DNA from: Eretmocerus hayati
Taxonomy: Eukaryota; Arthropoda; Insecta; Hymenoptera; Aphelinidae
Assembly: GCA_029851415.1 (NCBI GenBank)
Contig: CM056742.1
Span: 11,015,736-11,079,735 of the forward strand
Length of the DNA: 64,000 nucleotides
Direction of reading: 5' to 3'
Shown: one piece after another, positions 4,694-62,018 of the stretch
Layout of the letters: every line of letters starts with the position of its first letter
Numbering within the stretch: position 1 is the first letter of the stretch
The notes under the pieces: generated by a model
Databases searched by the model: none
The model's input: the letters and a program-made list of their open reading frames with translations, nothing else
Told to the model about the DNA's origin: nothing
Translations under genes and position numbers: made by a program

Positions 4694-4750
4694 TGTACTA
4701 AGCTAGAAAAAAAAATAAATAACAAGAGGAAAGAAAGAAGAAATAAACTA

Positions 4751-12772: not shown

Positions 12773-15049
12773 TTATGAAGAACATGGATGAGCATCTTCG
12801 GATACATTACAGATACTTGCAGTCGATCGATTGTCGTGGCCGTGACAGAAATTACTGAGTCGTCTTTTGCGTTTTAAATGAGCGATGATGTGGGCATAAT
12901 CGGGTTCAAGAACTCTGGTCTCATCTTGAATAACCATCTTTCCCCGCTCTGCATTTTCTTCCCAGTTATCAGATGTTACCGGTAGTCTTGATGAATTCTT
13001 CGAGCCATCCTGGCTTATAACTGAAATCAACTGCGATCGCGCATTAAGGAATTGAATCAAGTCAAACTCGCGAATCGATTCTTCTTCGATCTTAGTTTTT
13101 GCTTCTTGCACCAGACATCGAACGAAGCGCTTCCTTTTCGAGTTCGATTCTGGGATTCTCACTGGACATCGGCTTTTGAAGAATATCTCCCAAATTAAAA
13201 CAATACAAGCCAGAGCATATCCTGATAGTATAATTATTACTAGTTTCTGGTTCAGGGACACCTCTACATCCTCATCGTTTTCGGGACCATAGTGAGGGTA
13301 CATCTGCTGTGCGTTCCCAACTGCATGCGACACTCTGTACTGTCTTTGCTCAAGTAGCTTTCGATTGCGCATCATCAAACCTGATTCTGATAACTTTAGG
13401 AAAAATTTAGCAAAACGTTCCTTGAGTGGAAAATTCTTCCGCACTGGCATGAGTTTAATAGGCGTCATGATATTGTCTACCAAGTCAGTCAAATACAGAT
13501 TCTGGCCAAATTTTATCACTTGGGGAAATTTAGGTGCATTTCCATTCACAAATCCGTATATCGAATTGGAAGGCGCACGTGGATTGAATATATTGAAAGC
13601 CTCATCTTCTGATTGTACGACAATGGATCTATTGACTATTTTCTGCATCTCCGGGTGAACTTTACTGTATGCGGACAAGACTTCTCTCGTGAATCTATTG
13701 GTGAACAAGATTATCTTGGGATTAGCTAAGTCGTCTAAAGTTGTGCATCGCAAAACTTCCCGTCCACTCATGGACATCTGTAGAAGATTATCAGACGTCA
13801 ACGTCGTCATAACGATTGAGACAAAGTACAAAGTAACCAAGAGTATTTTCTCCCCTAATTTCATTTGCCGTCGACTTTCTAGTGTGCCACCCATTAGAAC
13901 TCGGATGATTTTCACGACCGACCAGCTTCTTTCATCAAATCTCATGATTCGTGAGGAGAGAAAGAAAGTCAGAGCCATCGCAAAGAGTACACCACACGTT
14001 GTTACGAAATGGAACGAAAATCTGAATTCTATAGTTTTTTCCTGCAAGAGACTCAGCCGAATTTCATCGAAAATGGAAGTGTAAACGAGGAAGCGCAATT
14101 CCTGCCTTAGATAATTCATTTGGTCACTACTATCTGTCAAGCTGCTATTGGCATGCAAAAATCCCCAAGTATTTAGATGGAGATCAGTAGGCTGCTCGTG
14201 AGATACGTTGTGCGTGTATGAAGCACCGAACAAAATTTCATCGTATTCAGACTCATGTTCCACGGGTGTATAATTCATAGCGACATTAAGACTTTCCATC
14301 AAATGAATCATTAAATTGAAGTCAGTATCCTCGAGACGTTTCCTGTGAATATTTTCCTTATAAATGTGAGCTTCGACGTTCAAAATATAACCCTGTAAAT
14401 CTCTCACTTTATAAGGAAGTATATCGGTATCATTTGACAATTTATCCTTGGTGTACTTGTCTTGGAATGGATTGAAGAGGTGAATGAGTACTTCATAAGT
14501 CGGCTGGTCTTTCGATTGTAAAGTCATTTTTGGAGTCGCATAAATCCATTCTATGACAGTCAGATCCAAAAAGTCATGAGACCAAGCAAATCTCAAGAAT
14601 GGCTCGAGACTCTGGCCCCTTCCGTTGATCAAGAATACGATGCACTTTCCACGAACATTTTCGCTGTAGTCCATTACGAAGGAAAGTGCTAACTCCAGTT
14701 CTTTGAGTACATCTTCTCTATTATGGATCTGGACTATAACAAATTTCAATTTTGATTGATCGATTGTTTGATCCCACAAGTTTCCAAATGGTCTCACTGC
14801 AGGTATTTCATGAGGTACACTTTCATCAATCACAATACTAGAGAACTCGTCAATCATGGCTTTCACGATTTTGGAGCCGAATGAATCAAGTTTTTTCACT
14901 GATTCAATCACAACAGTCACTTGATACGTCGGCAAATTGTTCTTTGTGTAATCGACAATATATTTTAGCGATGAGTCGTACTCAATTGTCAAGACACATC
15001 CCACTATTGGAAGTATCAAAATGATGTTGAAGAGTTTTTTAGAGTCCAT
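12773..15049 (-). CDS. Divergent ionotropic receptor, intact (IR-2)
   Basis: Start chosen at MDSKKLFNIILI (15049), which begins a signal peptide and matches the start of three paralogs; an in-frame ATG 14 codons upstream (15091) also exists. Numbering from that upstream Met, the extracellular ligand-binding half runs from about 38 to 355. M1 is about 359-380 (TTCGVLFAMALTFFLSS), the pore loop about 390-405, M3 about 414-432 (ILLVTLYFVSIVMTTLTSD), the second lobe about 435-610 with RKNFPLKERF and LKLSESGLMM, and the last membrane helix about 615-637. A charged cytoplasmic tail follows. Unlike the paralogs, the small 3' intron appears unusable here: the donor is shifted and the acceptor AG is changed to GG. 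The frame therefore reads on to its own stop, ending SEDAHPCSS. Likely a chemosensory ion-channel subunit; ligand unknown. Confidence 0.9.
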   Translation of the reverse strand: MDSKKLFNIILILPIVGCVLTIEYDSSLKYIVDYTKNNLPTYQVTVVIESVKKLDSFGSKIVKAMIDEFSSIVIDESVPHEIPAVRPFGNLWDQTIDQSKLKFVIVQIHNREDVLKELELALSFVMDYSENVRGKCIVFLINGRGQSLEPFLRFAWSHDFLDLTVIEWIYATPKMTLQSKDQPTYEVLIHLFNPFQDKYTKDKLSNDTDILPYKVRDLQGYILNVEAHIYKENIHRKRLEDTDFNLMIHLMESLNVAMNYTPVEHESEYDEILFGASYTHNVSHEQPTDLHLNTWGFLHANSSLTDSSDQMNYLRQELRFLVYTSIFDEIRLSLLQEKTIEFRFSFHFVTTCGVLFAMALTFFLSSRIMRFDERSWSVVKIIRVLMGGTLESRRQMKLGEKILLVTLYFVSIVMTTLTSDNLLQMSMSGREVLRCTTLDDLANPKIILFTNRFTREVLSAYSKVHPEMQKIVNRSIVVQSEDEAFNIFNPRAPSNSIYGFVNGNAPKFPQVIKFGQNLYLTDLVDNIMTPIKLMPVRKNFPLKERFAKFFLKLSESGLMMRNRKLLEQRQYRVSHAVGNAQQMYPHYGPENDEDVEVSLNQKLVIIILSGYALACIVLIWEIFFKSRCPVRIPESNSKRKRFVRCLVQEAKTKIEEESIREFDLIQFLNARSQLISVISQDGSKNSSRLPVTSDNWEENAERGKMVIQDETRVLEPDYAHIIAHLKRKRRLSNFCHGHDNRSTASICNVSEDAHPCSS

Positions 15050-15091
15050 GTTGAGGCTCTGATCTCTCGTAAACCACTGAGAGCTATGCAT

Positions 15092-15125
15092 ATTTTCAAC
15101 TAACGCATTTATTAGTCACGTCAAT
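15092..15125 (-). promoter_or_regulatory. Conserved IR proximal upstream box
   Basis: On the gene strand the sequence CGTGACTAATAAATGCG followed by TTAG lies just upstream of the receptor start. The same box (CGTGACCAATAAATGCG) precedes the receptors at 61958 and 38440, and a diverged form (GGTCACGTAAGTGACC nearby) precedes 26868. Conservation could mark a core promoter or a sensory-neuron enhancer, or only recent common descent. Confidence 0.45.
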
Positions 15126-23772: not shown

Positions 23773-26700
23773 CTATAAATTTTTTGTGTTTTTTCCCTTG
23801 CCTTGAGACCTGATGGAGAATACAAATTGGAGACCCTTGAAGATATAAACTATTTGACCATACGATTTTACGAAAAAACTTACCAAAAACTCGCAGTCGG
23901 TTGCTCATCATGGCTGATCATAGGAATACTTGTGCGTCTCTTACGCTTCAAATGAACGATGAGGTGGGCATTATCAAGTTCAAGTAACCCAAAAAATCTG
24001 GGTCTATCTTGAGTAGCCGTCATTCCACGATCTTCAGTCTCCTTCCGGATCCCGGATCTCACTGATAGTGTTGATGAAATATTGGAGTCCCATTGACTAA
24101 GTGTCATTATGCTCAACTGAAATAGCTCATCAAGAGATTGAATCAAGTTAAACTCGCGAATCGATTCTTCTTCGATCTTAGATTTTGCTTCTTCCATTAA
24201 ACATCGAAGGAAGCGTTTCCTTTTTGAGTTCGATTCTGGGATTCTCACTGGACGTCAACTCTTGAAAAATATCTCCCAAATTAGTACAATACAAGCCAGA
24301 ACATAACCTGGTACAAGGATAATCAGTAATCTCAAGTTCAGGGACACCTCTTCATCCTTGTCGTTTTCGGGACCATATTGAGTATGCATGTGCCGTACTC
24401 TTCCATCTGCATATATCGCACTGTACCATTTGAGACTTTTCAGCTTCTCATGGCGCATCATCAAACCTGATTCTGATAACTTCAAGAAGAACTGAGCAAA
24501 ACGTTCCTTGAGCGGGAAATTTTCCCGAACTGTCATGAATTCCATTTGCGTTGCGATATTTTCTTTTAAGAAAGTCAAATACAAATCCGGTTGTAATTCA
24601 ACAACATGTGGGGATTGAGCTAGACTTTCGGATAGAATCATGAATATCAAATTGAGAGGTGCCCGAGGATTGAATATTTTAAGAGCCTCGTGACTCGATG
24701 CCACGACAATGGATCTATTAGCTATCTTCTGCAACTTCGGGTAGTTGTCGTCAAATGAGGATAAAAAATCCCTCGTCCTTTTATCTGTGTGCAAGCTCAT
24801 ACTAGAATCAGTTAGCTCTTCTAAATTTGTCAATCTCAAAACCTCCCGTTTGCTCATAGACATCTTTAGCAGCTCATCAGATGTCAATGTCATCATAACG
24901 ATTGAGACAAAGTACAAAGTAACCAAAAGTATTTTCTCCGCTAATTTCATTCGCCGTCGAGCTTCTAATGAACCACACTGTAAAAAATCCTGGAGGATTT
25001 CCAGCGCGCGCTGGATTTCCAAGTCGCGCGATTCACTCAATTCACAGCGCCCAGCGCTGTGATATTCAAGGCTAGATCGTAAGTGTCGTCTGCTGTTGCC
25101 TCCGGTTGACTCTCAAATTTGGCTTGCTGCACCTGAAAAAATTTTGTTGAGAGTGATATCAGTCTATACCATAATCCTCCCGAATCTACTAATTCCGATA
25201 AGCTTATGCACATTGCGGTGCGCACGATATAACTCTCGATATTCTTCCTACGGCGGGGCCACCCATCATAACCGCAATGCTATGTCTCCGCTGTTGCAAG
25301 AATATCGAGAATTATATTTTACGTACCGCAATGTGCATAAGCTCATTGGAATCAGTGAATTCGGGAGGATTTTACACTAGAAAAATATCATTCTCAACGA
25401 ATTCATTTCAGATACAGCAAGCAAAATTCTGGAGTCTAATTGAGGCTCTAGCAGACAGCGTTGCACGGCCTTGAGGCACTCGCGTAGATTCACAACGCCC
25501 AGCGCTGTGTCGTCGCAGCTCCCGCCGTGGCATCACAACACCGAGCGCTGGAAATTTTGAGACCATCGCTGAGCATTGTGAATCTCGTTCTGAACTGGTT
25601 TCGAAGCTCAGCAGTGTAAATAACAACACTCAGCGTTGTTTTTTTACATCGCTCAGTTCTGTCAATTCACAGTGCTCAGCGATGGTCTCAAAATTTCCAG
25701 TGCTCAGCACTGTGAAATCCTCCAGGATTTTTTACAGTGCACCCATTAATGTACGAATGATTTTTATGGTAGACCATTTCTTCTTATCAAATCCTAAGAT
25801 TCGCGAAAATAACAGGAAAATTAGACCCATTGCAAAAAGTGCACCACACGTTGTTAAAAAGTCAAAAGAAACTCTGAACTCTTCAATTTTTTCCTGCAGG
25901 ATCAGAAACCGATTTTCAAAGCAAATAAAAGTATTGACCCTTGTAAGCAACTCATAATTCAACTGTTCCATTTGCTTCTCTTCGTCCGATGAGTCAATAA
26001 ATGGCGCAAAGATTGAGTTACTTTTCATGTCAAAGTCAATAAAAAACCCACGAGATTCGTTCTCAGCATCGTGTATCACGGAAGGATAGACAGTTGTGAA
26101 ATTAAGACCATCCGTCAGGTAATTCATCAATTTGACCTCGTTATTCCTGAAATATTCCTGAAAAAATACTCCTGGATACGCATTAGCAATACCACGGAAA
26201 CGGTAACCATGTAAATTTCTTGCTTTACATGGAAGTAAGTTGGTAGTATTCGACAATCTCTCTTTCGTGTACTTATCTTGAAATGGATCGAAGATGTGGA
26301 CAAGAACTTCGGAGTCAAGAGTTTCTGTTGTTGTAAGAGTCTGAGTTTGAGTTGTATTGACCCATTCCACGACGGTGATGTCCAAAAAATCAAGGGACCA
26401 AGCAAATCTCAAGAAATGCTCGAGACTCTGGCCCTTTCCGTTGATCAAGAATATCATGCACTTCCCACGAACTCTTCCACTATACGTGATTATATGAAAA
26501 ATCATCATTCTCAAATGGAGAAGTATATCTTGCTTCTCATGTATCTCAACTAGGGCAACTTTCAATTTAGATTGTTCCTTTGCTCGGTCCCACAAGTTTC
26601 CATATGGTCTCACTACAGGAATTCCATAATCTACATCAATATCTATCACAATACTGGAGAATTCGTCAGTTATCAACGTTACAATTCCTGAACCAAATGG

Positions 26701-26868
26701 AGTGAGATTGTTAGCCAATTGGACAACCACAGTCACTTGATAAGTTGATAAATAGTTCTTCATGTAATCAACTATGTATTTCAGCGATGAGTCGTATTCA
26801 TCGGTCGAGACGCATCTTATTGCCACTGAAATGATCAGAATGATGTTGAGAAATTTTTCCGAGTACAT
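23773..26868 (-). pseudogene. Ionotropic receptor broken by MITE and nonsense codon (IR-3)
   Basis: The 5' part (26868-25742) encodes a signal peptide (MYSEKFLNIILIISVAIRC), the extracellular half and M1, and stops in the pore region (TIKIIRTLMG). A 764-bp element with a CA target duplication is inserted there. Coding resumes at 24975 with SLEARRRMKLAEKILLVTLY, the second lobe (LKERFAQFFLKLSESG) and the last membrane helix. A TGA at 24252-24254 replaces the Arg codon of the usual FKSR motif. The tail (24248-23884) then continues to an intact GTAAGT donor (23883-23878), a 74-bp intron and a last exon (23809-23773). The 764-bp insertion is not a multiple of three. Unless the insertion is spliced out, the product is truncated after M1. 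Confidence 0.92.
24974..25741. mobile_element. CACTA-like MITE inserted in IR-3
   Basis: The element spans 24976-25739 and is flanked by CA dinucleotides (24974-24975 and 25740-25741). Near-perfect inverted ends are CACTGTAAAAAATCCTGG and CCAGGATTTTTTACAGTG. Many subterminal copies of CAGCGCTG or CTCAGCGNTGTG-type motifs occur near both ends, as expected for CACTA transposase binding sites. The interior is itself palindromic (GCTTATGCACATTGCGGT at about 25201 with ACCGCAATGTGCATAAGC at about 25325). Comparison with the uninterrupted paralogs (CACCCAT in the same place) defines the empty site. No transposase is encoded. Confidence 0.88.
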
Positions 26869-28320
26869 ATTGAGGCTTTGATCACTTGCAAGGTACTGAA
26901 AGCAATTGGTGTGACCGACTTATTTCTTTATGGGTCACGTAAGTGACCAACAAGGTATCCATGGATGTTGTTTTCGATGCCAAAGCAACTTGTTTTCGTT
27001 TCAGAACTCCGTAATTAACTAATAAGTGGCAAATAACCAACACTGACGATTGACATTGAGATAGAGATAGATAGACAGATAGATATGAATGATTATGAGT
27101 TGAGTTATGCATTTGATGTCCTGACCTCGCGTTCACATCAAACAACCAAATAGGATGAGTCTAACGATGGTATCTCGTGTATTTCATCGAAACGAAGATT
27201 AGATTAGATTAGATTAGTTTATTAATGGTACCTTGGGGTATTACCCTATGTGGTACAGGTAGAAATTTAATGTACATAATAATATAAATAATTTAAATGT
27301 GGTATGACATAAAGATAACATGATTAATATATCAAAGGATAAGTATCAATCATTGCGCAACTATTAATTCTATAACAATATTGAAATGTTGAAAAAGAAG
27401 ATGTCCCAATAGGTGAGGGAGCGAATATGAGTCTCATGTAGACCCGAGCTTACCAAAAGTGATCAGAATGTGCTTACCATGGCATGTCCTGAATTGGATT
27501 TGCACATTCAAATCGTTTAGTTTACCGGGATAGTCATCCAATCTCGACTCCGCACTACTCAAACGTCAAAATTGGGTTGTGAAAAGGTAATATTATGTAC
27601 AAATCGAGTATCGAGTCTTACTTTCAAATAGTTCAAACACAACCGACATTCTGTCCTTGAATTTTCAAAATTTTTCGAATACTTCCCGATAATTCAACTC
27701 GAGGCCACCGAACGGTTCCATAATCGCGGTAACTCATCAATAACACACCGAAGAACAAAATTTCACTCTCAGCAGAGTGATGAATTACGTGAACAGCCTC
27801 CCGCGCGATGATTTATGAACAATTTTTCCGTTGCAAATTAAGAGATGTCTTTACCGTGATGGTCACTGGCTCTCCACCACTATATGCAAGATTCGGAACC
27901 AAAAATTTTCTTACGATTAACTCTTACCGTGAAAAATAACTGTGTATTCGGGTAAAACGATCCATTTCGATTTACGCCTTTAAGATCGGTTTTTATGCCT
28001 AATGTCATCACCATGGCATCTCCTCACTGTGGTAAAAATACCTCGAAAATTGCAAATATTCATGTGGATCAACTAACGTTTAAGCCCGTCTGAAAATTGT
28101 TTTGGGCTGTCAGATAGATTGGAAGAAACATATGAGAGTTTCTACAGAACTTTTGACATTGTGCGTACTGCACGCTGTCTCTGAACCTTCAAATGTTTGT
28201 CAAGTTGTCGAAGCTGAATTTGATGGATTCCGGGGCCTCTGAATCTGTACTCGATTCGTTGTTCTGTCAAAGGAAACTGGCTATGCGCAGCACATTTTCT
28301 GGGTATCTCTCAATGGAGAT
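26869..28320. other. 5' flank of IR-3, no further gene
   Basis: Contains a short (GATA)n stretch near 27061-27085 and (GATTA)n at about 27199-27218 followed by TGGTACCTTGGGGTATTACC, possibly a LINE 3' tail on the minus strand. No convincing coding frame. Confidence 0.35.
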
Positions 28321-29165
28321 TGTATCTCTCAGTGGATGGATCGATGAGTCTGATGGATAGGATGGCTGGATGAGATAGATGGACGGGACGGATAGGGTGG
28401 ATGGATAGGATAGTCGGATGGGTAGATGGGATGGATGGGATGGGTGGATGGGATGAGTGAATAAGATGGATGGATGGGGTAGATGGATTGGATAGATGAG
28501 TGATGGTTGAGTGGGATGCTTGGATGAGATGTTTGGACGGGATAGATGAGATGGATGCGAAGGATGGATGGGCCCTTCTATCCAGCCCATCTATCCATCT
28601 ATCACATCCATAGAATCCATCCCATCCAACCATCCCATCTATCCCACAATCCCATTCATCCATCTCATCCATCTCATCCATCCACCCTATCTATCCGACC
28701 CATCCATCCAACCATCTCATCCATCCATCCCATCCATCCGACCCATCCAGCCATCCTATCCGTCCATCCCATCCATCTATCCCATCCATCCAACTATCCC
28801 ATCCATCCATCTCATCCATCTCATCCATCCCATCCCATCCATCCGACCCATCCATCCAACCATCTTATCCATCCATCCCATCCATCCACCCCATCCATCC
28901 ATCCCATCCATCTCATCCATCCCATCCCATCCATCCGACCCATCCATCCAACCATCTTATCCATCCATCCCATCCATCCACCCCATCCATCCATCCCATC
29001 CAACCCATCCAACCATCCCATCTCATCCATCTCATCCATCTCATCCATCCCATCCACCCATCCCATCCATCCGACCCAACCATCCTATCCATACCATCCA
29101 TCCATCCATCCCATCCATCCATCCATCCCATCAACTCATTCGTCCATTCATCCATTCATTCACCT
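28320..29165. repeat. Inverted microsatellite (GGATGGATG / CATCCATCC)
   Basis: From 28320 to about 28570 the + strand is G-rich (ATGGATGGGATGGATGG). From about 28575 to 29165 it is the complementary C-rich form (CCATCCATCCCATCC). The switch occurs at GGATGGATGGGCCCTTC (about 28561-28577). Long frames rich in His-Pro-Ser-Ile or Trp-Met-Gly-Asp come only from the repeat and are not genes. Confidence 0.95.
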
Positions 29166-29957
29166 CCAATACTTGTATTTGACCCCTGTAGGACAGGCAA
29201 CCCGCCTCGTCAAACAGACAAAAAATTACTCTTCGTCGTTCATAAGAAAAAGTGTTAGTCCTCGTCGTTGTTAAGGAAGAGGGTTTAGAGTTTATGATTT
29301 GGAATTGCTCTTGAACTCTCAGTCCTTTTTGTTCAGACGCACCCACATCTGAGGTGAAGGTACCCAAGTTGCCCCCATATTCCAATCCTGGGCATGGGCA
29401 CTCCTTGGCCTCCCGGCAATTGTTTTTACGTTTGATATGCCAGAAAGTGAGTAGTTTGCATCGACCCCGGATCATTTTTGCGTTCTACGGAAAATTCAGA
29501 GTCATGATTCCATTTTCCGTGATTGTACAGCTAAGAAATCTCCGAGAGAATTGCATTCATTAAAATCCGTGCCAAATTTTTTCAGCTCGACCAACTTTAG
29601 CGTACTCCAGCATCTTTGATTTTCTGTCTCAGAACCTTCAAAATCCTCCTTTGAGAGTTACAAGACTCGGATTGGGCCAATATCGGAGTGTACCCAATAT
29701 GCCTCTATGTGGTTGCCTCGAAAGGGTGTGCAGTACAACTTCTTCACCACTCAGAATGCGTTCATCACGTTAAAATATGTCGGGAAATGTTATCTGGGGT
29801 CGGCAAAAAGCTCCAAATGTGAATGCATGGCGATAAAAACACGTTATCGCCAATCTACATCATTCTTTCGTGGAATATTGAAACAATTTGGCTCTAATCC
29901 CACGAAATTAGACGTGATCCTATTGATTTTTAAAGTCTTGGAGAAAGCTTGAAAACG
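29166..29957. other. Intergenic, nothing recognised
   Basis: No coding frame with family character and no clear repeat apart from the flanks. Confidence 0.3.
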
Positions 29958-31027: not shown

Positions 31028-33403
31028 TTAAAATTCGGAGTTGTTGTAAACATCTCGTATCGCCTCCCTGTCTTGGTCTTGAAATCTGATGAAGATTAGA
31101 AATAAACGGTTATTCTCGAGTACAGATGAACATCCACTCAATCCTTGGCAGTATACTCACCGATGATTTGGCGATTGCTCATCATACGTCCCCATTTGAA
31201 TTCTTGCACGTTTTTTACGCTCCAAATGAGCGATAAGGTGGGCATTATCGAGTTCGAGTAAGCGAACAACTCTGAGCCTGTCTTTGGTAGCCGTTGTGTC
31301 GCAACCTTCATTCTTCCTCCGGCGATTGGAATTTACTGATAATCTTGATGTATTTTTATTAAAGCCCCATCGACCAAGAGTCGATATTCTCAGCTGCAAT
31401 TGATCATTAAGAGACTGAGTCAAGTCAAACTCGTGGGACGACTCTTCTTCGATATTAGATCTTGCTTCTTCCACTAAACATCGAACGAAAAGCTCTCTTT
31501 TCGACTTCGATTCTGTGATTTCTGCTGAGCATGGACTCTTGAAGAATATCTCCCAAATTAGTACAATACTCGCCAGAACATAACCTGATACAAGAATCAT
31601 CAGTAACCTTTGTGTCAGGGACACCTCTTCTTCCTGGTCCATATCAGGACCATACTGGGGGTACATCTCCCATAACATTCCCCATTCATTCATATTGTTG
31701 AGCAACTTAAAATTTTCCAGCATTTGGTGATGCACTATCAAACCTGATTCTGATAGCTTCAGGAAGAATTCAGCAAAACGTCTTTTGAGCGGAAAGTCTA
31801 GTCGCGTTGGCATATATTCCATGCGTGGCATAATAACCTCTCTCAAATAAACCATATACAAATTTGATCGCATTTTTACTACACGTGGGAATTGAACGGG
31901 AACTTCTGATAGAGCTAAGTATTTCAAATTGACTGACGTCGGATGATCGTATGCATTTATCACATCATCGTGAGATACTATGGTGGATTTATTAGCTATC
32001 TTCTGAAATTTGGGATCATTTCCCCCAATCCAGGATAAGAATTCACTCGTCTTTTTTTCTATATGCAATGTCACTCTGGAGTCGGCTAGTTCTTCAAGAG
32101 TTGTGCATTGCAAAACGTCCCGCTTACTCACGGACATCTTTAATAGTTCATCTGATGTCAGTGTTATCATGATTATTGAGACAAAGTACAAAGTAATTAA
32201 GAGTATTTTTTCCCCTAATCTTGTTCGTCGTCGAATTTCTAATGAGCCACCCATCATTACCCGTGCGATGTTTACGAGTGACCATATCCTTTTGTCGAAC
32301 CCCATGATTCGCGAAGATAACAAAAAAATTAGACACATCGCAAAGAGTATAACGAACGTTGTTAAGAAATTTGACGAAATTCTGAACTCGGTGATTTTTC
32401 CTTGCAGAAGCGAAAATCGATATTCTCTGAACGAAGACTTGTAGACAAACATGGCCAAAAAATCTTTAAAAAAATTCATATCAGTAGTGACGTCTGAGAA
32501 GTTGGCGCTCGGCCTTGATAAGTAAGAATTCAGACGGAAGTCAATACGGCGCCCACGAGATGTATTCCTATTGAACAACGCAACAATAGGAGACTTACCG
32601 TGGTTACTATCATTCACGACTGCATAAGTCATTGTAAAATTGAGAGTATCCATCAAGTACTTTATCGGCTTAACTTCAGAATCGTCGGACCGTTTTCGAT
32701 TACCAAATCCTGGGGCCCCTCGGGGATCAGCGTGAAAATTGTAGCCATGTAAATTTCTCGCTTTACATGGAAGTATGTCGGTAGTATTTGACAATCTATC
32801 CTTGGTGTACTTGTCTTGAAATGGATTGAAGATGTGGATGAATACTTCAGAGCTAAGAGTCTCGGTCGCTGTAAGAGTTCGAGTTTGAGTCTTATTAACC
32901 CATTCCACGACGGTTAGGTCCAAAAAGTCATTCGACCAAGCAAGTCTCAAGAATGGCTCGAGACTCTGGCCCCTTCCGTTAATCAAGAGTATGATACACT
33001 TTCCACGAAAAAATGGGCTGTGCCACATCATATAAAGAATCATTGGTTCTAGTTCGATAAGTACATCTTGCTCATCATGTATCTCAACTATGCCAATTTT
33101 TAATTTTGATTGATCGATTATTCGGTCCCACAAGTTTCTAATTGATTTCACTTTAGGAATTTTTTCAAATCCACTTCTATTGATGACAATACTGGAGAAT
33201 TCGTCAGTTACCAGCTTCACAATTTTCGAACCAAATGACTCGAATTTTTCAGTTGATGTGGACATAAGAGTAACTTGATACGTTGCCAAATTACTTTTCA
33301 TGTAATCAACTATGTATTTCAGCGACGGATCGTACCCATCTGCCAGGATACACGCCGCCACTGAGATTGTCAAGATTATCTTGAAAAGTTTCTTCGAATC
33401 CAT
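31028..33403 (-). CDS. Divergent ionotropic receptor, intact (IR-4)
   Basis: Start MDSKKLFKIILTISVAACILA (33403) is a good signal peptide. The main exon runs to 31161 and ends with a GTGAGT donor. A 75-bp intron (31160-31086) is followed by a last exon (31085-31028) that adds about 19 residues (FQDQDREAIRDVYNNSEF). Domains in order: extracellular binding half with the family block GKCIILLINGRGQSLEPFLR; M1 (TTFVILFAMCLIFLLSS); pore loop; M3 (ILLITLYFVSIIMITLTSDELL); second lobe with LKRRFAEFFLKLSESGL; last helix at about 598-620; basic tail. No lesion is seen, so this is likely a functional chemosensory channel subunit. The donor and acceptor are inferred from alignment with IR-1, IR-3 and IR-7. 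Confidence 0.9.
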
Positions 33404-33589
33404 GTTGAGACTGTGATCGTCGCCGAGGTACGTAAATCAACGAGTATGGCCAACTACCATACTGCTTACACTGAACACGTCACAGACGAACGAATATTTC
33501 CATAGACGTGTTACCCATTTCAAAAAATTGTCAATGCCAATACTTCACGATTGAGCAAAAATAAGTGATTCAACAAATACCCAAGATCG

Positions 33590-38270: not shown

Positions 38271-38557
38271 TAGGTCTGTTTCGCGTGGAATAACTTATAT
38301 GACAGTCACCTGATACGTCGACGAATTACTTTTCATGAATTGATTATTCGTTGCAAAGATGGATCGCCGCATAGGCCAAGATACTTACATTCCACCATTG
38401 TGAGTATCAAAATGAAGTAGAACAGTTTTTTCGACTCCATGTTGAGGCTTTGATCTCTCTCTAGGTACTGAGAACTATACATATTCCTAACTAACGCATT
38501 TATTGGTCACGTCACGCCAATGCGATGTGATGAGTGACTGTCATGGGTATTAAGGCC

Positions 38558-38834
38558 TGTGGGGTACATAATACCTCACATGCGCAATAGATGGATGACA
38601 GATCCAGCTCCTTTCCCGCAATCGACGGCTCAAGACCTCGATTAGTATATAAGAGCGCATAAGTGCTTAATCGCCAAGCGTCCAGGGCACCACCTGCAAC
38701 ACCAGCCCTGCTGATGAGTCCGGTTACGATGAACCAGGTTGCAGGTGGGGGACGAAACGCATAAAGAGCCTTCTGCTCAAAGCGCGTTGAGTCATTTCAT
38801 CTAGTAGTGGATAAGCCATCAGCTTATTCCTACA
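38558..38834 (+). repeat. 5' LTR of retrozyme
   Basis: TG...CA termini, 277 bp. TATATAAG at 38646-38653 lies about 29 bp upstream of the ribozyme cleavage position, so transcription may start near that position. Contains the intact hammerhead core. Confidence 0.85.
38678..38760 (+). ncRNA. Hammerhead ribozyme, type III topology, core intact
   Basis: Order on the + strand: GCG (helix III), UC with predicted cleavage after C 38682, CAGGGC (helix I), a 16-nt loop, GCCCUG (helix I), CUGAUGA (38711-38717), GUCC (helix II), a long loop, GGAC, GAAA (38754-38757), CGC (helix III). All invariant core nucleotides, the A15.1-U16.1 pair and H17=C are present. Helix III has three bp plus A-U and is open-ended, giving type III topology. 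The helix I loop CCACCUGCAAC is exactly complementary to GUUGCAGGUGG in the helix II loop, which could form a strong loop-loop contact. The expected action is self-cleavage, and possibly religation, of the element transcript. Confidence 0.92.
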
Positions 38835-38853
38835 TTGGTAACCCGCGACGTGA
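38835..38853 (+). other. Primer-binding-like site
   Basis: TTGGTAACCCGCGACGTG follows the LTR directly. The TGG start is what a tRNA 3' CCA end would pair with. Which tRNA would serve is not determined. Confidence 0.55.
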
Positions 38854-39149
38854 TTGAAACGCAACTTTCATGGAGTCAGATCAGTCTGAAGCATATACTC
38901 ATTACGAGTACGCTCAGTAAAAGCCTTTCCATTTACATTTGATCACTTGCTAAGCGCCGTTGTACCGCGACACGCAGTAGTAACCTAGAGGCATTGCGAC
39001 TTCGGTTCTGCTGCGGCGCGAGTCGCGGAATGCGATGTCACGATGCATTCGCTCTCGGCATTTGCAGCTATAATGCGGTGTCATGTATATTGAGTGATAA
39101 GTGCAAAATTAATAATTGTAAAATCATTCCTTGAACGCTATGGCTCTGA

Positions 39150-39162
39150 AGCTGGGGGAGTG
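39150..39162 (+). other. Polypurine tract (interrupted)
   Basis: AGCTGGGGGAGTG would lie next to the 3' LTR in the empty site (GGGGGAGTG followed by GC and then TGTGGGG). The inserted DNA transposon now separates it from that LTR. Confidence 0.6.
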
Positions 39163-40684
39163 CAGGGTGTCTAGCGAAATCCTATCGAGAATTTCCAGGT
39201 TTTTTCCAGGTTTTCCAGGTCCCAAAACATGATTTTTCCAGGTTCATTTTTGGAAAGAAAAAACTGCCTGTACTCGATTACAGTTCTTGAGATCAAAATG
39301 TATTGTGTCAAAATAATATATGACTGTACATAGCTGTACATAAGAAGTATACATTTATAATGCAATTTAAAATTTTCCTCGTTCACTCGCGCATGACTGA
39401 TCTTATCCAGACGCAAGAACCTCGTTTCTTGTACGTTATTCTTCTCATCATCGGAATCTTGTCATTTATCAGGAATAAATTAATTCGACAAAATGGGAGA
39501 TATTGAATGAATCCCCATGGCATATTTCGACCCAATGTTCGGAACAAATTTTTGAATCAAATTGGAGTGATCAAATATTTCAACACCATATTATATTTAT
39601 ATATTTGCGTCTGAACTGAAAAGTTATACACTGGTAAAAATCGATTCTGTTCCACGAGATCAATATCATTCTTCATCATCTTCGTCATCAACATGCAAAA
39701 CCCGCATCATTTTCGAGTAACACGCCGTGATATACGTCCGAAACTACCGTTGCCATATGCTACAAGGCCAGTATCTTAGAAATGACGCATTCCTGAGAAA
39801 AAAACATCGAGATACAAATCGGAACTTTCTCAAAAGGAGTAACAAAAGAGTATTCTTGTAAAATTTAGATTGAGCGCATCATTTTCGAGTTACACGCCAA
39901 GGTAGGTTCGAAACTACCGTTCCACATCTTGCAAGGCCAGTATCTCAGAAATGACGCATTCATGAGGAAAAACACTCGAATACGAATTGAAAGATCTTGA
40001 GAAGATAAACGAAAAAGTATTCCTATAAACTTTCGATTAAGCGCATTGTTTTTGAGTTTTTGGCGAAAAATCGTCATTTTACCCCCTTTTCAACAGAAAT
40101 CGACATTTTACCCCCAAATTTTCCAATTTTGAACAGACCTAGAATGCCCACCTCAACGCTATTTCAATCTACGCTGAAAAAGCTTTCAAATAAACATATG
40201 TTGGGCACTGAAGCACGACGGACATATACGACCTCAAAATTAATTATTTAAAAAATTCATAGCTCCGGTTTGAACAAACGCACAATGCCCACCTAGGGCG
40301 GGAAATTTTTAGGAAAATACCCTCTACACATTGGTTTAGTCACCTCGCTGGAGCCCAACGAACCAACGAAAGGTCCACCGGAGACCAGAATATTCGGCCG
40401 TTCAGGCGGCGAACGGCCGTGGCTAAGTTGTTGCTGTCTTTCGATGCGTTTGAACGATCGATCAAAATCACGCGGGGGATCAGATTTTTGATGCTTTTAT
40501 TCTCAATTGCAGAGTAGACCGTTCGCCGTTTATTCAAAATTCCAGGTTTTGCGTCCGAATCTTAGAAATTCTAGGTTTTTGTGCTCAGAATGAGCGTATT
40601 TCCAGGTTTTCCAGGTACTAAATTTTTTTCCAGGTTTTTTCCAGGTTTTCCAGGTTTTCCAGGTTCGCTAGACACCCTGGAGTG
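39158..40684. mobile_element. hAT-like non-autonomous DNA transposon inside retrozyme
   Basis: The element is 39163-40679 with inverted ends CAGGGTGTCTAGCGAA and TTCGCTAGACACCCTG. The flanking repeat is GAGTG (39158-39162 and 40680-40684), five bases rather than the eight usual for hAT. Subterminal regions hold many CCAGGTTTT repeats in both arms. The interior has two direct copies of a block of about 180 bp (ATCATTTTCGAGT...AAGGCCAGTATCT) at about 39699 and 39875. No transposase frame. Confidence 0.82.
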
Positions 40685-40686
40685 GC

Positions 40687-40962
40687 TGTGGGGTACATAA
40701 TACCTCACATGCGCAATAGATGGATGACAGATCCAGCTCCTTTCCCGCAATCGACGGCTCAAGACCTCGATTAGTATATAAGAGCGCATAAGTGCTTCAT
40801 CGCCAAGCGCCCAGGGCACCGCTTGCAACACCAGCCCTGCTGATGAGTCCGGTTACGATGAACCAGGTTGCAGGTGGGGGACGAAACGCATAAGAGCCTT
40901 CTGCTCAAAGCGTGTAGAGTCATTTCATTTAGTAGTGGGTAAGCCATCAGCTTATTCCTACA
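40687..40962 (+). repeat. 3' LTR of retrozyme
   Basis: TG...CA termini, 276 bp, about ten differences from the 5' LTR, so the insertion is not recent. Contains the second hammerhead. Confidence 0.85.
40807..40889 (+). ncRNA. Hammerhead ribozyme with mutated cleavage site
   Basis: Same layout as the 5' LTR copy: CAGGGC/GCCCUG helix I, CUGAUGA at 40840-40846, GUCC/GGAC, GAAA at 40883-40886, CGC. The nucleotide at 40810 is C instead of U (GCC in place of GUC), removing the A15.1-U16.1 pair and violating the NUH rule, so cleavage should be abolished. The helix I loop also changed (CCGCUUGCAAC), weakening the loop complementarity. Confidence 0.85.
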
Positions 40963-40966
40963 GGCC

Positions 40967-52042: not shown

Positions 52043-53986
52043 TTAGGTTTGGTATCGAAATATTCGCCTAGACCAAAATTGAGCAAAAACTTCCCACAAA
52101 AAAGAGATGAAAGCAGAAAAATAACCGGTCAAAATAATAAAGAGTAATCTGAATTTTAAAGACACCTCAACACTCTTATCATTTTCAGGACCATAATGCT
52201 TATAAGCATCTTCTTTTGGATTCTTGTGAAAACAAAAACTACATACTCGATTCACTTCCTCCCTGTTATATTTCATCATCAAACCCGTTTCTTGTAGTTT
52301 GCGGAAGAATTTGCCAAAACGATCCCTGAACGGAAAATTTTTTCGCACGAACATGAATTTGTCGAGTGACATAATGATCCCGTCTAAGTGAGTGGCGTAC
52401 CATTCTGATGAGTCCAATTTGAAAAAGCGGTGTTGATGATAAGGAACTGTCATCAGGGAACCAAAAACTGAGTTATCAGTACGGTGAGCGTCACGTTTTT
52501 TCATATACTCATCGATCGCTTCCACAAGGACAGTTCGATTAGCTATTTCCTGCATCTTGGAATCCACCTGACCAAGATGAAATAACACATCCCTTGTTCC
52601 CTCTTCCACATCTAGGTTTACATCCGAGTCTATAAATTCTTCCAGGGTTCTAAATCTCAAGACTTCACGTTTATTGATGCTCATCTTAAGCAACTCATCC
52701 GATGTTATCGTAATAATGATGAGCGAGCTAAAGTATAACGTAATGAGGAATATTTTTTCCTTCAAACTCATTTTTCTTTGATATTGCATCGAGCCACCCA
52801 GAAGTGCTTTGGCTATTTTGGTTATTGACCAAATCTTCTTATCGAAATTCATGACTCGAGAGAATAATAGGAAAATTAAGAACATAACAAGTAATGTACC
52901 GCACGTGAAGAGGAAATTTGATGAAATCTCAGTCTCAGTAACCTTTCTTTGCATTATCCAGAGCTGAGTTCCATAACGAATAGAAGTGGATATTTCTGTG
53001 AAGGATTCGTGTTTTACTCTGTTCATTTGGACTCCGGAATCTTCGTATTCGCCGATCGCGTAATGGCGAAAATCTAAAGCTGAATCGAAGTCAAACTGTT
53101 CTCGACAAGTTGCATTATTAATGTCCGCCTCGTAATTCTTAACTTCATCCGAAATATTTCTTCCTATGAACTCTCGAATGATGGTGAAATTGAAAGCACC
53201 CATGGCATAACTTATGGAAAGCTGGTCCTCCTCTGCCCAACTTCTAAGTCGGAATATTCCAAACTCGACCCCATCAAGGTGATAATAGCTGCGCAAGTCA
53301 TTCTTCGTCCTCAAGGGATAACCGTATAAATTTTGCTGCTTCTCTGGAAGTATGTCAGCAAGCTCCGTCAATTTGATTCGACTGTAGTGATCTTGGAAAG
53401 GATTGAAGGTGTGGATTAGAACTTCACAGTCCACATACTCTTTTGAAGCTATAAACATTCTTGGAGTCGTATTGATCCATTCTATGATAGTCAAATCCAA
53501 AAAATCACGAGACCAAGCAAATCTAAGAAATGATTCGATGCTCTCACCAGTGCCATTAATAAAAAAAATGATACATTTTCCTCGAACATAATCGCTGTAA
53601 TTCATCCAAAACTCAATCATACTTCGCAACTCTTGAAGTAGATCCAGTCCATCGCGATGTTCTATGATTCCAATTTTCAACTTTGACTGATCAGCCGTTT
53701 GATTCCACAGGTTATTGAATGATCTCACTGCAGGTATTTTTTCAACAACACTGTAATCGACGACAATACTGGAAAATTCATCAACCATGACTTTCACGAT
53801 GTTGGCGCCAAATGTGCTGAGAGAACTCACTGATTCGACAATGACAGTCACCTGATACGTTAATAAATTATTCTTCATGTAATTGACTACATGTTGCAGA
53901 GCAGGCTCATACTCAGGAATCGAATCACACTTCACCATTGGAACCATCGAGATTATGATGAAAAGTTGTCCCGGACCCATGTTCAT
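52043..53986 (-). CDS. Divergent ionotropic receptor, short-tailed (IR-8)
   Basis: The protein has 647 residues and starts MNMGPGQLFIIISMVPMVKC, a signal peptide. It keeps the family layout: EFSSIVVDYSVVEKIPAVRS, GKCIIFFINGTGESIESFLR, M1 (FLFTCGTLLVMFLIFLLFS), pore loop with LLGGSMQYQRKM, M3 (IFLITLYFSSLIIITITSDE), second lobe with RDRFGKFFRKLQETGLMMK, and the last helix at about 613-634. It ends soon after (QFWSRRIFRYQT), so the basic tail of about 100 residues and the 3' intron of the other copies are absent. It is the most diverged copy, with intact features throughout. IR-5 is a fragment of the same lineage. Confidence 0.9.
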   Translation of the reverse strand: MNMGPGQLFIIISMVPMVKCDSIPEYEPALQHVVNYMKNNLLTYQVTVIVESVSSLSTFGANIVKVMVDEFSSIVVDYSVVEKIPAVRSFNNLWNQTADQSKLKIGIIEHRDGLDLLQELRSMIEFWMNYSDYVRGKCIIFFINGTGESIESFLRFAWSRDFLDLTIIEWINTTPRMFIASKEYVDCEVLIHTFNPFQDHYSRIKLTELADILPEKQQNLYGYPLRTKNDLRSYYHLDGVEFGIFRLRSWAEEDQLSISYAMGAFNFTIIREFIGRNISDEVKNYEADINNATCREQFDFDSALDFRHYAIGEYEDSGVQMNRVKHESFTEISTSIRYGTQLWIMQRKVTETEISSNFLFTCGTLLVMFLIFLLFSRVMNFDKKIWSITKIAKALLGGSMQYQRKMSLKEKIFLITLYFSSLIIITITSDELLKMSINKREVLRFRTLEEFIDSDVNLDVEEGTRDVLFHLGQVDSKMQEIANRTVLVEAIDEYMKKRDAHRTDNSVFGSLMTVPYHQHRFFKLDSSEWYATHLDGIIMSLDKFMFVRKNFPFRDRFGKFFRKLQETGLMMKYNREEVNRVCSFCFHKNPKEDAYKHYGPENDKSVEVSLKFRLLFIILTGYFSAFISFLWEVFAQFWSRRIFRYQT

Positions 53987-55290
53987 TCCGTGTCCACTTT
54001 TTAACGACTGAAACTGGGATATCCTTCAACTGGGGCTCCAATTCATCCAATTGCGTCGTCTCGATGTAGATGCCGCAATAGATTTGACTAATTCTCATGG
54101 ATATATCCTATTTGCGCCTGCAATCGATCGGTTAACGATAAATCAACAAGTGATTACTGTCATAAGTGAAAAATCATTTTTTCTCCCTCTTTTTCTAGAG
54201 AGCCATTATCAATCTAACAAGTTTCAGTGATCTTTATCGTACCGTGGCTCACTCTGAAAATTGGATATAGTACTATCAGAGTTGCTGGGGCACTTTCGAT
54301 GCCCTCCAATCACTTTATTTAATCCATTAGTAATTCTTAAGCATTTTCATGTATTCGTCAGTACTGAGACTTGATATAAAAATCATCAGTTGAGTATTTC
54401 CCGGGATAAGGAAAAAAATGTTAGAAATTGGTCGACTTCTAACCGAAGTCATCAGCTACTTGTTTGAAAATTCAACCGGGTAATTCGAGTTTTGAACACT
54501 GGTTGCCTGTAAAACTCGACCATTGGTTGCCTGCCAAATTCAACTTTTTAGTTGAAATATCTACCACGGCGAATATGGGCATCGGATTAGGAACAATCAC
54601 GAGATGCATGAGTTCGGTGAATGGTGGTGCTCGGACGACATTTTTGGGTCAGACAAACAAATTTTTCCATGATTCCTCATGAACATGAATAGAAATAGAT
54701 AATGGCAGTGGCCGCGCAAGTCTTTTCGGTCAAAAATCCAGGTTGGGCAACGTTTTCGCGATTCGTATCAGGATAGGTGACCACCCAACTTGGTTTGCGA
54801 AGCCTGTAGCTTATTTTGGATCAGAAACTAGGCAAGCGCAAGATGAATGGTCGCCCATCCGAATTATGGGAGGTAAAAACTTTGCTTGGCCCGGATTTTT
54901 GACCGCAAAGGCTCTCGAGGTGGTCACTGATATTTTCTTCTCATTATATAAAAATACGCTTCTAAACGAGATCAGCAGAATGCTCCCTCACAGCGATATT
55001 TGCTGATTTTTCGGAGAAATTTCACAATTACTCTTACATTGAGGACAAATCATACAACATCACATGTCGTATTCCTACTGACATCGACAACCGATAACTC
55101 ACGATATTCTTTCACATGTTTTTCATTGAATTGTTGAAATACTTATATCCAAGAATGATCTCTGTGACTTTTGGGTATGACTTTTTCTTGGTCAAACCTA
55201 ATGAAAATCTTATTTTTCGATACACTGTGCGTAAAAGTGCACTTTGCGCACAATTTGTCGACTTTTACTCACAGTTTATCGAAAAGTATA
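53987..55290. other. 5' flank of IR-8
   Basis: Contains a 24-bp tandem duplication (TGGTTGCCTGTAAAACTCGA / TGGTTGCCTGCCAAATTCAA at about 54501-54545). Otherwise nothing recognised; the conserved box seen before other receptors was not found. Confidence 0.35.
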
Positions 55291-59601: not shown

Positions 59602-61958
59602 TCATTGCATTTGTGGCAATGAGTGATTTCTTGCGTTGCGTTGAGACCTGATGAAGAATACAAATGAGTGATTCTTGGAAATATCATCGATTTAACCATA
59701 CAATTTTCCGAAAAAACTTACCGCAAATTTGCCGTCGATTGCCCATCGTGGCTGATCAACGTAATACTTGTGCGTCTCTTGCGCTTCAAATGAGCGATGA
59801 GGTGGGCATTATCGAGTCCAAGTAACCCAAAAACTCTAGGCCTGTCTTCGGTAAACATTATTTCACGATCTTCATTTTCCTTCCGGATTTTGGATTTTAC
59901 CGATGACCTTGATGAATTATTGGGTTCCCATTGACCAAGAGTCATTATTCTCAACTGTACTTGAATGAAGTCAAACTCGCACGACGACTCTTTTATGATC
60001 TTGGATTTTGCTTCTTCCACTAGACATCGAACGAAGCGCTTCCTTTTAGAGTTCAATTTTTCAAATTGTACCGGTCTCTGACTTTGGAAAAATATCTCCC
60101 AAATTAAAACAACACAACCCAGGACATAACCTGGTACAAGAATAATCAGTAATCTTAAGTTCAGAAACACCTCTTCATCCTTGTCGTTTTCGGGTTCATA
60201 ATTGGGGTACATCTGCGGTGCTAACCCTCGCCTGGCCCAAACATTGTGCATGTGACCGATATTTTGCGTCTCGTGATACATGATTAAACCGGTTTCGGAA
60301 AGTCTCGACAAGACTTTGACAAAGCGTTCCCTCAGCGGGAAGTTCATTCGCACTGGCATATATTCGGCTTTTGTCGCAATAGTATCCCTTAATTGGGTCA
60401 AATAAATTCCCGGCCTGAATTTTATAACATGAGGATTGTTCGGCTCAACGCGTTCTAGAGTCCCATAGACGGAATTATGAGATGCATCAGAATAAGCTGC
60501 CGATAAAAGCTCACGAGCGGATCCTACGAGAATAGATTTGTCAATTATTTTCTGCAACTTGGGATTATCCTTGCCTGAATATGACAGTAAAATATCCTTC
60601 GTCGACTTCAGTGTGTAGGAATGAGTACTAGAATCAGCCAATTGTTCCAATGTTGTACATCCCAAAAGCTCGTGTTTGTTGATACTCATTTTGATGAGCT
60701 CATCGGACGTCAATGTCATCATAACGATTGAGACAAAGTACAAAGTGACTAAGAGTATTTTTTCTCCCAATCTGATTCGTCGTCGAGTTTCTAACGGACC
60801 ACCCAACAATGCTTGAGCAATTTTCACGGTAGACCAGCTTCTTTCATCAAATTTCATCATTCGCGAAGATAACAGAAATATTAGACACATTACAACGAGC
60901 ACGCCGCATATTTTCAAGAAATTGAGCGAGATCTCAACCTCCGTGGTTTTCTTCTGCATAATTGTAAGCTGAATTTCTTCAAAGACAGAAGTCGGAACAG
61001 CAAGAGACAACCAGATTTTCACGTCATTCATTTTAACCCCGCCATTGGTAATGTTGCTCTCTGGCCAGAAATGGAAAAATTCGAAATAAAAATCTGCACG
61101 CTGCTGAGGAATTGCATCGTTCTCAGATATGTCACCCGGTGGAATTCTATCTTGTTTCTCATCATGTTCTACATAACGATAAACAATCGTGAAATTGAGA
61201 ACCTCTTCCAAACAAAAAATCAATGCAAGATCGCGTTCAGTCTTCAATTTTCCCGGCTTTCTTCTATCCACATGAACCTGCATTTGCAGGTGGTAATCAT
61301 GTAAATTCCTTGTTTTACGTGGAAATATGTCAGTATTAGGTGACAATCTCTCTTTCGTGTACTTATCTTGAAATGGATCGAAGATGTGGACAAGAACTTC
61401 AGAGGCAAGATTCTCAGTTGCTGGGAAAATCCGGGTTTGAGTTTTATTAACCCATTCCACGACGGTTAGGTCCAAAAAGTCACGAGACCAAGCAAATCTC
61501 AAGAATGGCTCGAGACTCTGGCCCCTTCCGTTGATCAAGAATATGATGCACTTCCCACGAACATTTCTACTGTACGCCTTCATATAAAAAATCATCAATC
61601 TCATTTCGAGAAGTACCTCTTGCTCATCATGGATCTCAACTATGCCAACTTTTAATTTTGATTGATCAGCTATTTCATCCCATAACTTGGTGGATGATCC
61701 TGTATCGGATATTTTTTTAATAGCACCATCATCAACGACAACACTGGAGAACTCATCAATCATAACTTTCATGATGTTGGAGCCAAAAAGACCGAGTTTC
61801 GGCTGTGATTGGTCAAGTACGACAGTAACCTGATATGTTGACAAATAACTTTTCATGTAGTTGATTATTTGTTGCAAAGATGGATCGCACACATCGGTCA
61901 AGACACATTCCGCCATTGTGAGTATCAAGATGAAGTTGAATAGTTTTTTCGAGTCCAT
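59602..61958 (-). CDS. Divergent ionotropic receptor, intact (IR-7)
   Basis: Start chosen at MDSKKLFNFILILTMAECVL (61958), a signal peptide; an in-frame ATG 20 codons upstream (62018) is less likely. The main exon runs to 59722 with a GTAAGT donor. A 74-bp intron (59721-59648) is followed by a last exon (59647-59602) adding about 15 residues. Order: binding half with GKCIIFLINGRGQSLEPFLR; M1 (CGVLVVMCLIFLLSSRMM); pore loop (LLGGPLETRRR); M3 (ILLVTLYFVSIVMMTLTSDE); second lobe with LRERFVKVLSRLSETGLIMY; last helix near residue 630; basic tail. A likely functional chemosensory channel subunit; ligand unknown. Closest in sequence to the broken IR-6 (shared FILILTM signal and DPSLQ). Confidence 0.9.
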
Positions 61959-62018
61959 GTTGAGGCTCTGATCACTCGTAAAGTACTGAAAGCTATGCAT
62001 ATCTCCAACGAACGCCAA

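Follow-up and report, generated by a model that had tools for sequence, protein, structure and literature searches.

The 64,000-nucleotide stretch of the Eretmocerus hayati genome analyzed here (assembly GCA_029851415.1, contig CM056742.1, positions 11,015,736 to 11,079,735; referred to below as the window) contains, at positions 38558 to 40962, a long terminal repeat (LTR) element with a type III hammerhead ribozyme in both LTRs. This element probably belongs to a family of non-autonomous LTR retrotransposons of the retrozyme type, passage through an RNA circle included. Judged from sequence, it is close to certain that it is a real LTR element of several families, inserted by an integrase and carrying a type III hammerhead that is constrained between families; by analogy with plant retrozymes and from the anatomy of the element, it is likely that its RNA is cut and circularized. 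E. hayati is a parasitoid wasp of the family Aphelinidae, and its host is the whitefly. An earlier note made from the letters of the window had proposed that an insect genome carries an LTR-type retrozyme with type III hammerheads, and the proposal is supported by 201 hammerhead cores in the genome, at least four families, target site duplications (TSDs), empty sites, a primer binding site (PBS), and a polypurine tract (PPT). The features of the element are the following.

38554-38557, no strand: TSD GGCC, left copy, equal to 40963-40966.
38558-40962, + strand: LTR retrozyme element, with LTRs, TSD, PBS, PPT, and hammerheads read from the sequence.
38558-38834, + strand: 5' LTR, 277 bp, TGTGGGG...CCTACA, from the sequence and additional genomic copies.
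38646-38653, + strand: TATA box TATATAAG of a putative promoter, with its first base 37 nt before the ribozyme cut.
38678-38760, + strand: type III hammerhead of the 5' LTR, from the Rfam model, alignment, and folding; predicted cut after 38682; stem III 38678-38680/38758-38760, stem I 38683-38688/38705-38710, stem II 38718-38721/38750-38753, hairpin IIb 38722-38735.
38690-38700, + strand: pseudoknot strand in loop I, 11 bp, from alignment and folding coordinates.
38738-38748, + strand: pseudoknot strand in the 3' arm of stem II, 11 bp, from alignment and folding coordinates.
38836-38855, + strand: PBS in a variant form, one spacer T after the 5' LTR.
39154-39162, + strand: PPT GGGGGAGTG, split by a DNA transposon, with GC at 40685-40686 before the 3' LTR.
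40687-40962, + strand: 3' LTR, 276 bp, from the sequence.
40807-40889, + strand: hammerhead of the 3' LTR, cleavage triplet GCC, all 11 pseudoknot pairs standard.
40963-40966, no strand: TSD GGCC, right copy, equal to 38554-38557.

The anatomy described in the earlier note was largely confirmed: GGCC is duplicated at the two ends, the LTRs run from TG to CA at the expected length of about 277 bp (with 8 mismatches and one gap between them), a PBS-like site lies one base past the 5' LTR, a purine-rich tract is present, and an open reading frame scan of 38558-40962 found no stop-to-stop frame of 140 or more amino acids, as expected of an element lacking coding capacity. The claim of a consensus hammerhead in each LTR held for the type, which is III in both, and failed for the cleavage triplet of the 3' LTR; with GCC instead of GUC, that ribozyme is probably weak or dead in the window copy. 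The predicted cut after 38682 likewise fits the hammerhead of the 5' LTR, the corresponding triplet of the 3' LTR being GCC. The pseudoknot, the tRNA-Trp type of the PBS, and the TATA box were absent from the note and are described here.

The internal region of the window copy is long because a DNA transposon of 1,517 bp has inserted in the PPT. Once this is subtracted, the native internal region measures 330 bp and the element proper about 880 bp. Internal regions of 321 to 365 bp were measured in other two-LTR copies, most of which span 869 to 914 bp when their ends are complete (752 bp in L068 and 771 bp in L090), and the window copy exceeds this typical size solely through its insert.

39163-40679, no strand: nested DNA transposon, foreign to the retrozyme, 1,517 bp, with 16-bp inverted ends at 39163-39178 and 40664-40679.

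The 5-bp sequence GAGTG is duplicated around the transposon (39158-39162 and 40680-40684), at the place where many other retrozyme copies have GGGGGAGTGGC once. The transposon has inverted ends of the form CAGGGTGTCTAGCGAA and several TTTTCCAGG repeats; hAT transposons duplicate 8 bp, and the ends look hAT-like by eye, but the duplication here is 5 bp.

The core pattern CTGATGAGTCC-N20-45-GGACGAAAC occurs exactly 201 times in the 692-Mb genome and the reversed pattern not once, so the cores are above chance. Eighty regions were fetched around the listed core places, the first of the 201, and smaller regions were added later. The genome holds at least 41 matches to the LTR (40 of 408 candidates scored) and at least 40 to the internal region (40 of 95 candidates scored). 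Querying the loci with the LTR of family A (the families are described below) gave 94 rows, from which 39 with incomplete outer ends were omitted; the 55 kept include L064 and L068, which are nearer to family D. Among 26 multi-LTR rows, the 4-bp TSD is exact in 19 and has no more than one mismatch in 25; among 29 single-LTR rows, the corresponding numbers are 20 and 23. Shuffling of the right flanks gives an expectation of 0.8 exact TSDs per set. Several of the misses arise because some single-LTR rows are cut-down elements, one flank of which is internal sequence. The earlier note had anticipated further copies with duplications of 4 to 5 bp; these exist with 4 bp, and none of the 55 rows has a 5-bp duplication in register. 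The duplicated letters vary between elements, in line with insertion by an integrase.

When the flanks of the 39 elements with exact TSDs were joined, 12 aligned across the joint somewhere, several of them to themselves or with gaps. Four empty sites were compared letter by letter (L071 and L069 with L053, L076 with L077, and L072 with L041): all four have no gap at the joint and carry the 4-bp site once, with one letter of it changed in both comparisons to L053 and, between L069 and L053, a 28-nt difference away from the joint. The L072 insertion interrupts a retrozyme LTR, of which L041 is the empty counterpart. Some insertions are recent, since the two LTRs are identical in 4 of 24 pairs. 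In the literature found, LTR retrozymes are reported from plants only, which would fit DNA of foreign (for example plant) origin or an artefact of the assembly; this explanation is scarcely credible given 201 cores across the genome, empty sites within repeats of the same genome, and a window that lies on a 192-Mb contig whose named proteins are those of E. hayati.

Two further occurrences of hammerhead sequence stand apart from these copies. A repeat of about 2 kb or longer, 96 to 99% alike at L021, L022, L033, and L060, is chimaeric and includes only the 3' portion of the hammerhead and LTR, stem I being absent; and the core pattern is present in two viral stretches of a viral collection (contigs L097 and L098).

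At least four LTR families, designated A, B, C, and D, carry the hammerhead. Family B has an LTR of 250 bp and a unit of 517 bp, family C, represented by the single element L043, an LTR of 235 bp and a unit of 478 bp, and family D an LTR of 273 bp and a unit of 480 bp. Of 13 family-B places examined, 11 have both ends, with 8 exact TSDs and 3 with one mismatch. These places are partly non-independent, as L058 and L082 share their flanks and L088 sits in this flanking sequence in the opposite orientation; all three are inserted at an identical position of it, which is either a shared repeat or a preferred site. L043 has GATG on both sides, and family D has exact TSDs at L034, L068, and L064 and one mismatch at L108. 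Between families, the ribozyme is 70 to 88% identical, compared with 37 to 47% for the LTR flanks, in five of six family pairs (one LTR each); in the sixth, A and D, the values are 95% and 79 to 80%. With the 20 positions fixed by the search pattern removed, the ribozyme remains 62 to 85% identical in five pairs and 94% in A-D.

The ribozyme consists of an open stem III of 3 bp, a stem I closed by a loop of 16 to 17 nt, and a stem II of 4 bp, whose 5' side runs on into a hairpin. Loop I contains 11 nt complementary to 11 nt in the 3' arm of stem II, forming a pseudoknot to which family B adds a twelfth pair. The covariance-model check proposed in the earlier note returned a type III match at 38675-38763 (E 1.5e-5 in a relaxed search of 401 bases), the 33.5 bits of which do not attain the gathering score of 48.5. 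Conservation of the core within the motif set is not evidence, because the motifs were selected by the core pattern, to which neither the pseudoknot nor stem I belongs. Of 84 distinct motifs, 12 were left out of the alignment, namely 3 chimaeric ones without stem I and 9 others, most with insertions, deletions, or foreign flank. Pseudoknot cells are paired in 97.3% of cases across the 72 aligned motifs, with changes on both sides in 4 of the 11 pairs, and in 888 of 918 cases (96.7%) across all 84, where the chimaeras pair least well. The observed values for the whole structure were not reached in any of 500 shuffles, a control that ignores relatedness. When the partners were slid against each other, 33 to 47% of cells paired, in comparison with 96.9% observed, and the covariation scores were 0.006 to 0.026 rather than 0.065. 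The family-C element L043 has four pseudoknot pairs changed on both sides relative to family A with pairing kept, and one of these changes is also present in L082 of family B. The core and the NUH cleavage triplet are intact in 65 of the 72 aligned motifs, the 3' LTR of the window being among the other seven. Circular folds of three predicted monomers were stabler than those of 30 shuffles each (z of -7.1, -2.0, and -3.1). Just 3' of the ribozyme, at 38766-38779, is the sequence GAGCCTTCYGCTCA, which has the potential to form a 4-bp hairpin and is kept in the LTRs of all four families.

The position of the ribozyme relative to the putative promoter is nearly constant. Among 82 LTRs examined, both marks were found in 65, and in 63 of these the TATA box starts 37 nt before the cut; measured from TATAAG, the spacing is 34 nt in three members of family B, 35 nt in the window copy and in two members of family D, and 36 nt in L043. 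Transcription starts about 30 nt downstream of a TATA box, which would place the start about 7 nt before the cut, just enough for stem III. Neither AATAAA nor ATTAAA occurs in the 82 LTRs matched by the family-A LTR, and the functional RNA probably owes both its ends to the ribozymes. A promoter has been mapped in the LTR of the plant retrozyme NbRZ1 (PMC12029980).

The PBS connects the elements to a particular group of retrotransposons. In some copies it reads TGGTGACCCCGACGTGATT, complementary to the 3' end of tRNA-Trp, the comparison being with a general tRNA sequence that ARAGORN reads as tRNA-Trp (CCA). The form TGGTGACCCCGACGTGAT, which is common to families A, B, and D, stands in 6 of 34 LTR-internal junction rows (2 of the 34 are not PBSs); followed by one T, it is complementary to the 19 nt at the 3' end of the comparison tRNA, counting CCA, and is found at 7 distinct places in 96 loci, overlaps counted once. 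The commoner family-A form, also that of the window, is TGGTAACCCGCGACGTGATT, and the PBS of the family-C element matches the comparison tRNA over 11 nt only. A tRNA-Trp PBS together with a 4-bp TSD characterizes the CsRn1 lineage of Ty3/gypsy (PMC3630058, PMC2582038), and the wasp elements have both marks, the first by the comparison tRNA. Mobilization by an LTR retrotransposon, as put forward in the earlier note, is thus supported and the likely partner narrowed to a Ty3/gypsy element of the CsRn1 clade.

A genome search for the PBS with at most two mismatches found 53 places, and a control found none. Twenty of the 53 read AACTTGG..., and the single one of these that was read, L099, is a decayed Ty3/gypsy element with the same PBS, reverse transcriptase and integrase domains, and broken frames. 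Its integrase piece matched 1,359 proteins at E 1e-30; among the best 120, the named ones include arthropod gypsy-type proteins and none names a clade. In the PDB, the best matches were to the prototype foamy virus (PFV) integrase, with Ty3 also matched, which is uninformative on clade. By its sequence, L099 indicates that this genome contains gypsy genes in an element whose PBS is of the tRNA-Trp type; L099 is a candidate helper at most. No coding partner with retrozyme-like LTR ends was found among the 25 places with an exact ACA-PBS junction, C1:134350536 being unread: 15 lie in or beside known retrozyme copies (12 read, 3 assigned by position next to LTRs), and the 9 newly read comprise 8 retrozymes with an exact core and one retrozyme-related sequence without it.

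Copies with more than two LTRs also occur. A family-B array at C4:92848500-92851800 (L100 and L110) has five LTRs and four internal regions, marked by four PBSs 516 nt apart; its units are 516 to 517 bp, three of 516 bp being identical and the fourth differing at one position, and ATTT stands on both sides. Tandem Repeats Finder, run with a longest period of 500, did not report this 516-bp array. The three-LTR copy L007 of family A is flanked by TTGT and CTGT, which differ at one position. Multi-LTR arrays with matching duplications are predicted if reverse transcription runs round an RNA circle. Head-to-tail arrays are also what the known animal kind of element would leave, that is, a non-LTR retrozyme or tandem satellite whose dimer mimics an LTR-internal-LTR arrangement. 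This explanation is very improbable, because the hammerhead is type III and not type I, the copies have TG...CA ends, 4-bp TSDs, a PBS, and a PPT, single-LTR copies have TSDs as well, and metazoan retrozymes are reported without LTR, PBS, or PPT (PMC7229834).

In the proposed route, RNA polymerase II would initiate in the 5' LTR some 7 nt ahead of the cut and read through the element, and the ribozymes of the two LTRs would excise an RNA exactly one LTR plus one internal region in length. In the members measured, this length is 596 nt for family A, 517 nt for B, and 480 nt for D. A host ligase would close this RNA into a circle, the tRNA-Trp-primed reverse transcriptase of a CsRn1-like Ty3/gypsy element would copy the circle, sometimes for several rounds, and the helper integrase would insert the cDNA with a 4-bp duplication, giving two-LTR copies and occasional head-to-tail arrays.

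A number of observations weigh against this reading. Cleavage, circles, and promoter use are predictions from sequence. Stem III has just 3 bp, the Rfam score lies below the gathering score, and a search of the whole window at the gathering score gave no match. The predicted lowest-energy nested fold joins the pseudoknot arms and disrupts stem I, at -33.4 kcal/mol compared with -16.7 for the hammerhead without its pseudoknot; it is possible that this nested helix (38678-38760) serves as an on/off switch that protects the closed circle. Sliding the partners by -1 column gives 8 pairs with changes on both sides against 6 observed, although this slide is otherwise lower (9 cells against 15, and 41% paired against 96.9%). 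The tRNA-Trp sequence used for the PBS comparison was not read from this genome. L099 has CATAAC before its PBS and not CTACA, and no direct repeat of 30 nt or more that could be its LTRs was found in 5 kb. The arrays can equally be produced by unequal exchange between LTRs. AATAAA or ATTAAA occurs in 9 of 21 complete family-B LTRs, so that in this family the ribozyme is not the sole possible 3'-end former and a poly(A) route is also open. Finally, within family A and outside the search pattern, the ribozyme (2.4% deviating cells) is no better kept than the 5' part of the LTR (2.6%), while the part of the LTR 3' of the ribozyme deviates more (5.6%); copies seem to decay without constraint after insertion, the constraint on the ribozyme being visible between lineages.

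The last two observations would suit an ordinary animal terminal-repeat retrotransposon in miniature (TRIM) that has acquired a hammerhead and spreads by a linear, strand-transferring pathway, with the ribozyme a passenger or a trimmer of transcripts. Animal TRIMs are known (PMC3532108, PMC6934838), and the PBS, PPT, and TSD are those of a normal LTR element. Such an origin is nonetheless unlikely: the ribozyme is better kept than the LTR flanks between families, its pseudoknot has compensating changes, and a cut about 7 nt past the likely start would decap every transcript, and such an effect does not sit easily with a passive role. The retrozyme reading can be extended to an independent origin in insects, in which a CsRn1-dependent mini-LTR element captured a pseudoknotted hammerhead beside its promoter and thereby gained RNA circles, multi-round copying, and integration of multimers. 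This extension is offered tentatively, as somewhat short of an even chance, with the poly(A) hexamer in family B counting against it.

Elsewhere in the window, related long open frames are clustered, all on the - strand (12773-15115, 24255-26919, 31157-33436, 52043-54025, and 59718-62018); the named matches of the one that was searched are all from E. hayati, the three that were scanned have no Pfam match, and by eye they presumably resemble divergent ionotropic receptors. At 980-4702 on the - strand lies a frame of a non-LTR retrotransposon that encodes endonuclease, reverse transcriptase, and RNase H domains, and a simple-repeat stretch at 28546-29274 is open in three frames, with translations rich in His, Pro, and Ser. 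A recent burst of gypsy LTR insertions is described in a 2026 paper on the E. hayati genome, the main text of which lacks the words ribozyme and non-autonomous (PMC13116730).

Among the closest known systems are the LTR retrozymes of plants, which have a type III hammerhead in both LTRs and LTRs of 300 to 400 bp (PMC4918200, Cervera et al. 2016; PMC7761336). The wasp elements share with them the 4-bp TSD, PBS, PPT, lack of coding potential, single LTRs, and likely Ty3/gypsy partner, and tandem copies are mentioned for the plant elements too (PMC11722881). They differ in having an animal host, a PBS for tRNA-Trp (by the comparison tRNA) in place of the plant tRNA-Met, which is treated here as a lineage difference and not a defining failure, a ribozyme directly behind a TATA box, and a base-paired pseudoknot of 11 to 12 bp instead of the usual non-Watson-Crick loop contact (PMC7936874). 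The animal non-LTR retrozymes (PMC7229834, Cervera and de la Pena 2020) are likewise small hammerhead-bounded repeats of animal genomes, but theirs are type I hammerheads in units without LTR, PBS, or PPT, and the wasp elements fall outside that description.

Type III hammerheads of dipterans, termites, and hepatitis delta virus (HDV)-like agents also show base pairing between loop I and helix II in insects; they differ in a short GCCR/YGGC pairing and a long helix I, and those of termites are isolated motifs (PMC7936874). Their authors did not find that architecture in the hymenopterans that they searched, and the portions of their paper used here mention no host LTR element (PMC7936874). With Helenus, Ajax, Cassandra, and animal TRIMs, the wasp elements have in common miniature size, a small-RNA sequence in the LTR, and tandem arrays, and with animal Helenus the 4-bp TSD; those elements carry a tRNA or 5S sequence and not a ribozyme (PMC10886601). 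By size (less than about 1,000 bp), LTRs, PBS, PPT, and absence of genes, the wasp elements are TRIMs as well. The CsRn1 clade, which occurs in insects, has the same tRNA-Trp PBS and 4-bp TSD and differs in being autonomous, with gag and pol and with no ribozyme mentioned in the portions of the sources used (PMC2582038, PMC3630058).

No report of an LTR retrozyme in an animal was found in the open-access PMC literature, bioRxiv and most subscription journals being outside the search. Two of the papers refer to unpublished results of de la Pena concerning type III hammerheads in insects (PMC7761336, PMC7936874), so others may already have the insect type III/LTR finding. The elements suggest that a retrozyme can operate with another tRNA primer and another helper clade than in plants, and that small RNA circles may be a means of spread for such elements in animals as well. 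They provide an animal system for asking whether LTR reverse transcriptases use RNA circles and bear on the origin of insect type III and HDV-like hammerheads; if the circles were also copied from RNA to RNA, they would constitute a viroid-like replicon of an animal genome. A December 2024 review describes animal retrozymes as non-LTR elements with type I hammerheads (PMC11722881), and an LTR retrozyme in a wasp breaks this published division between plants, with LTR retrozymes and type III hammerheads, and animals, with non-LTR retrozymes and type I hammerheads.

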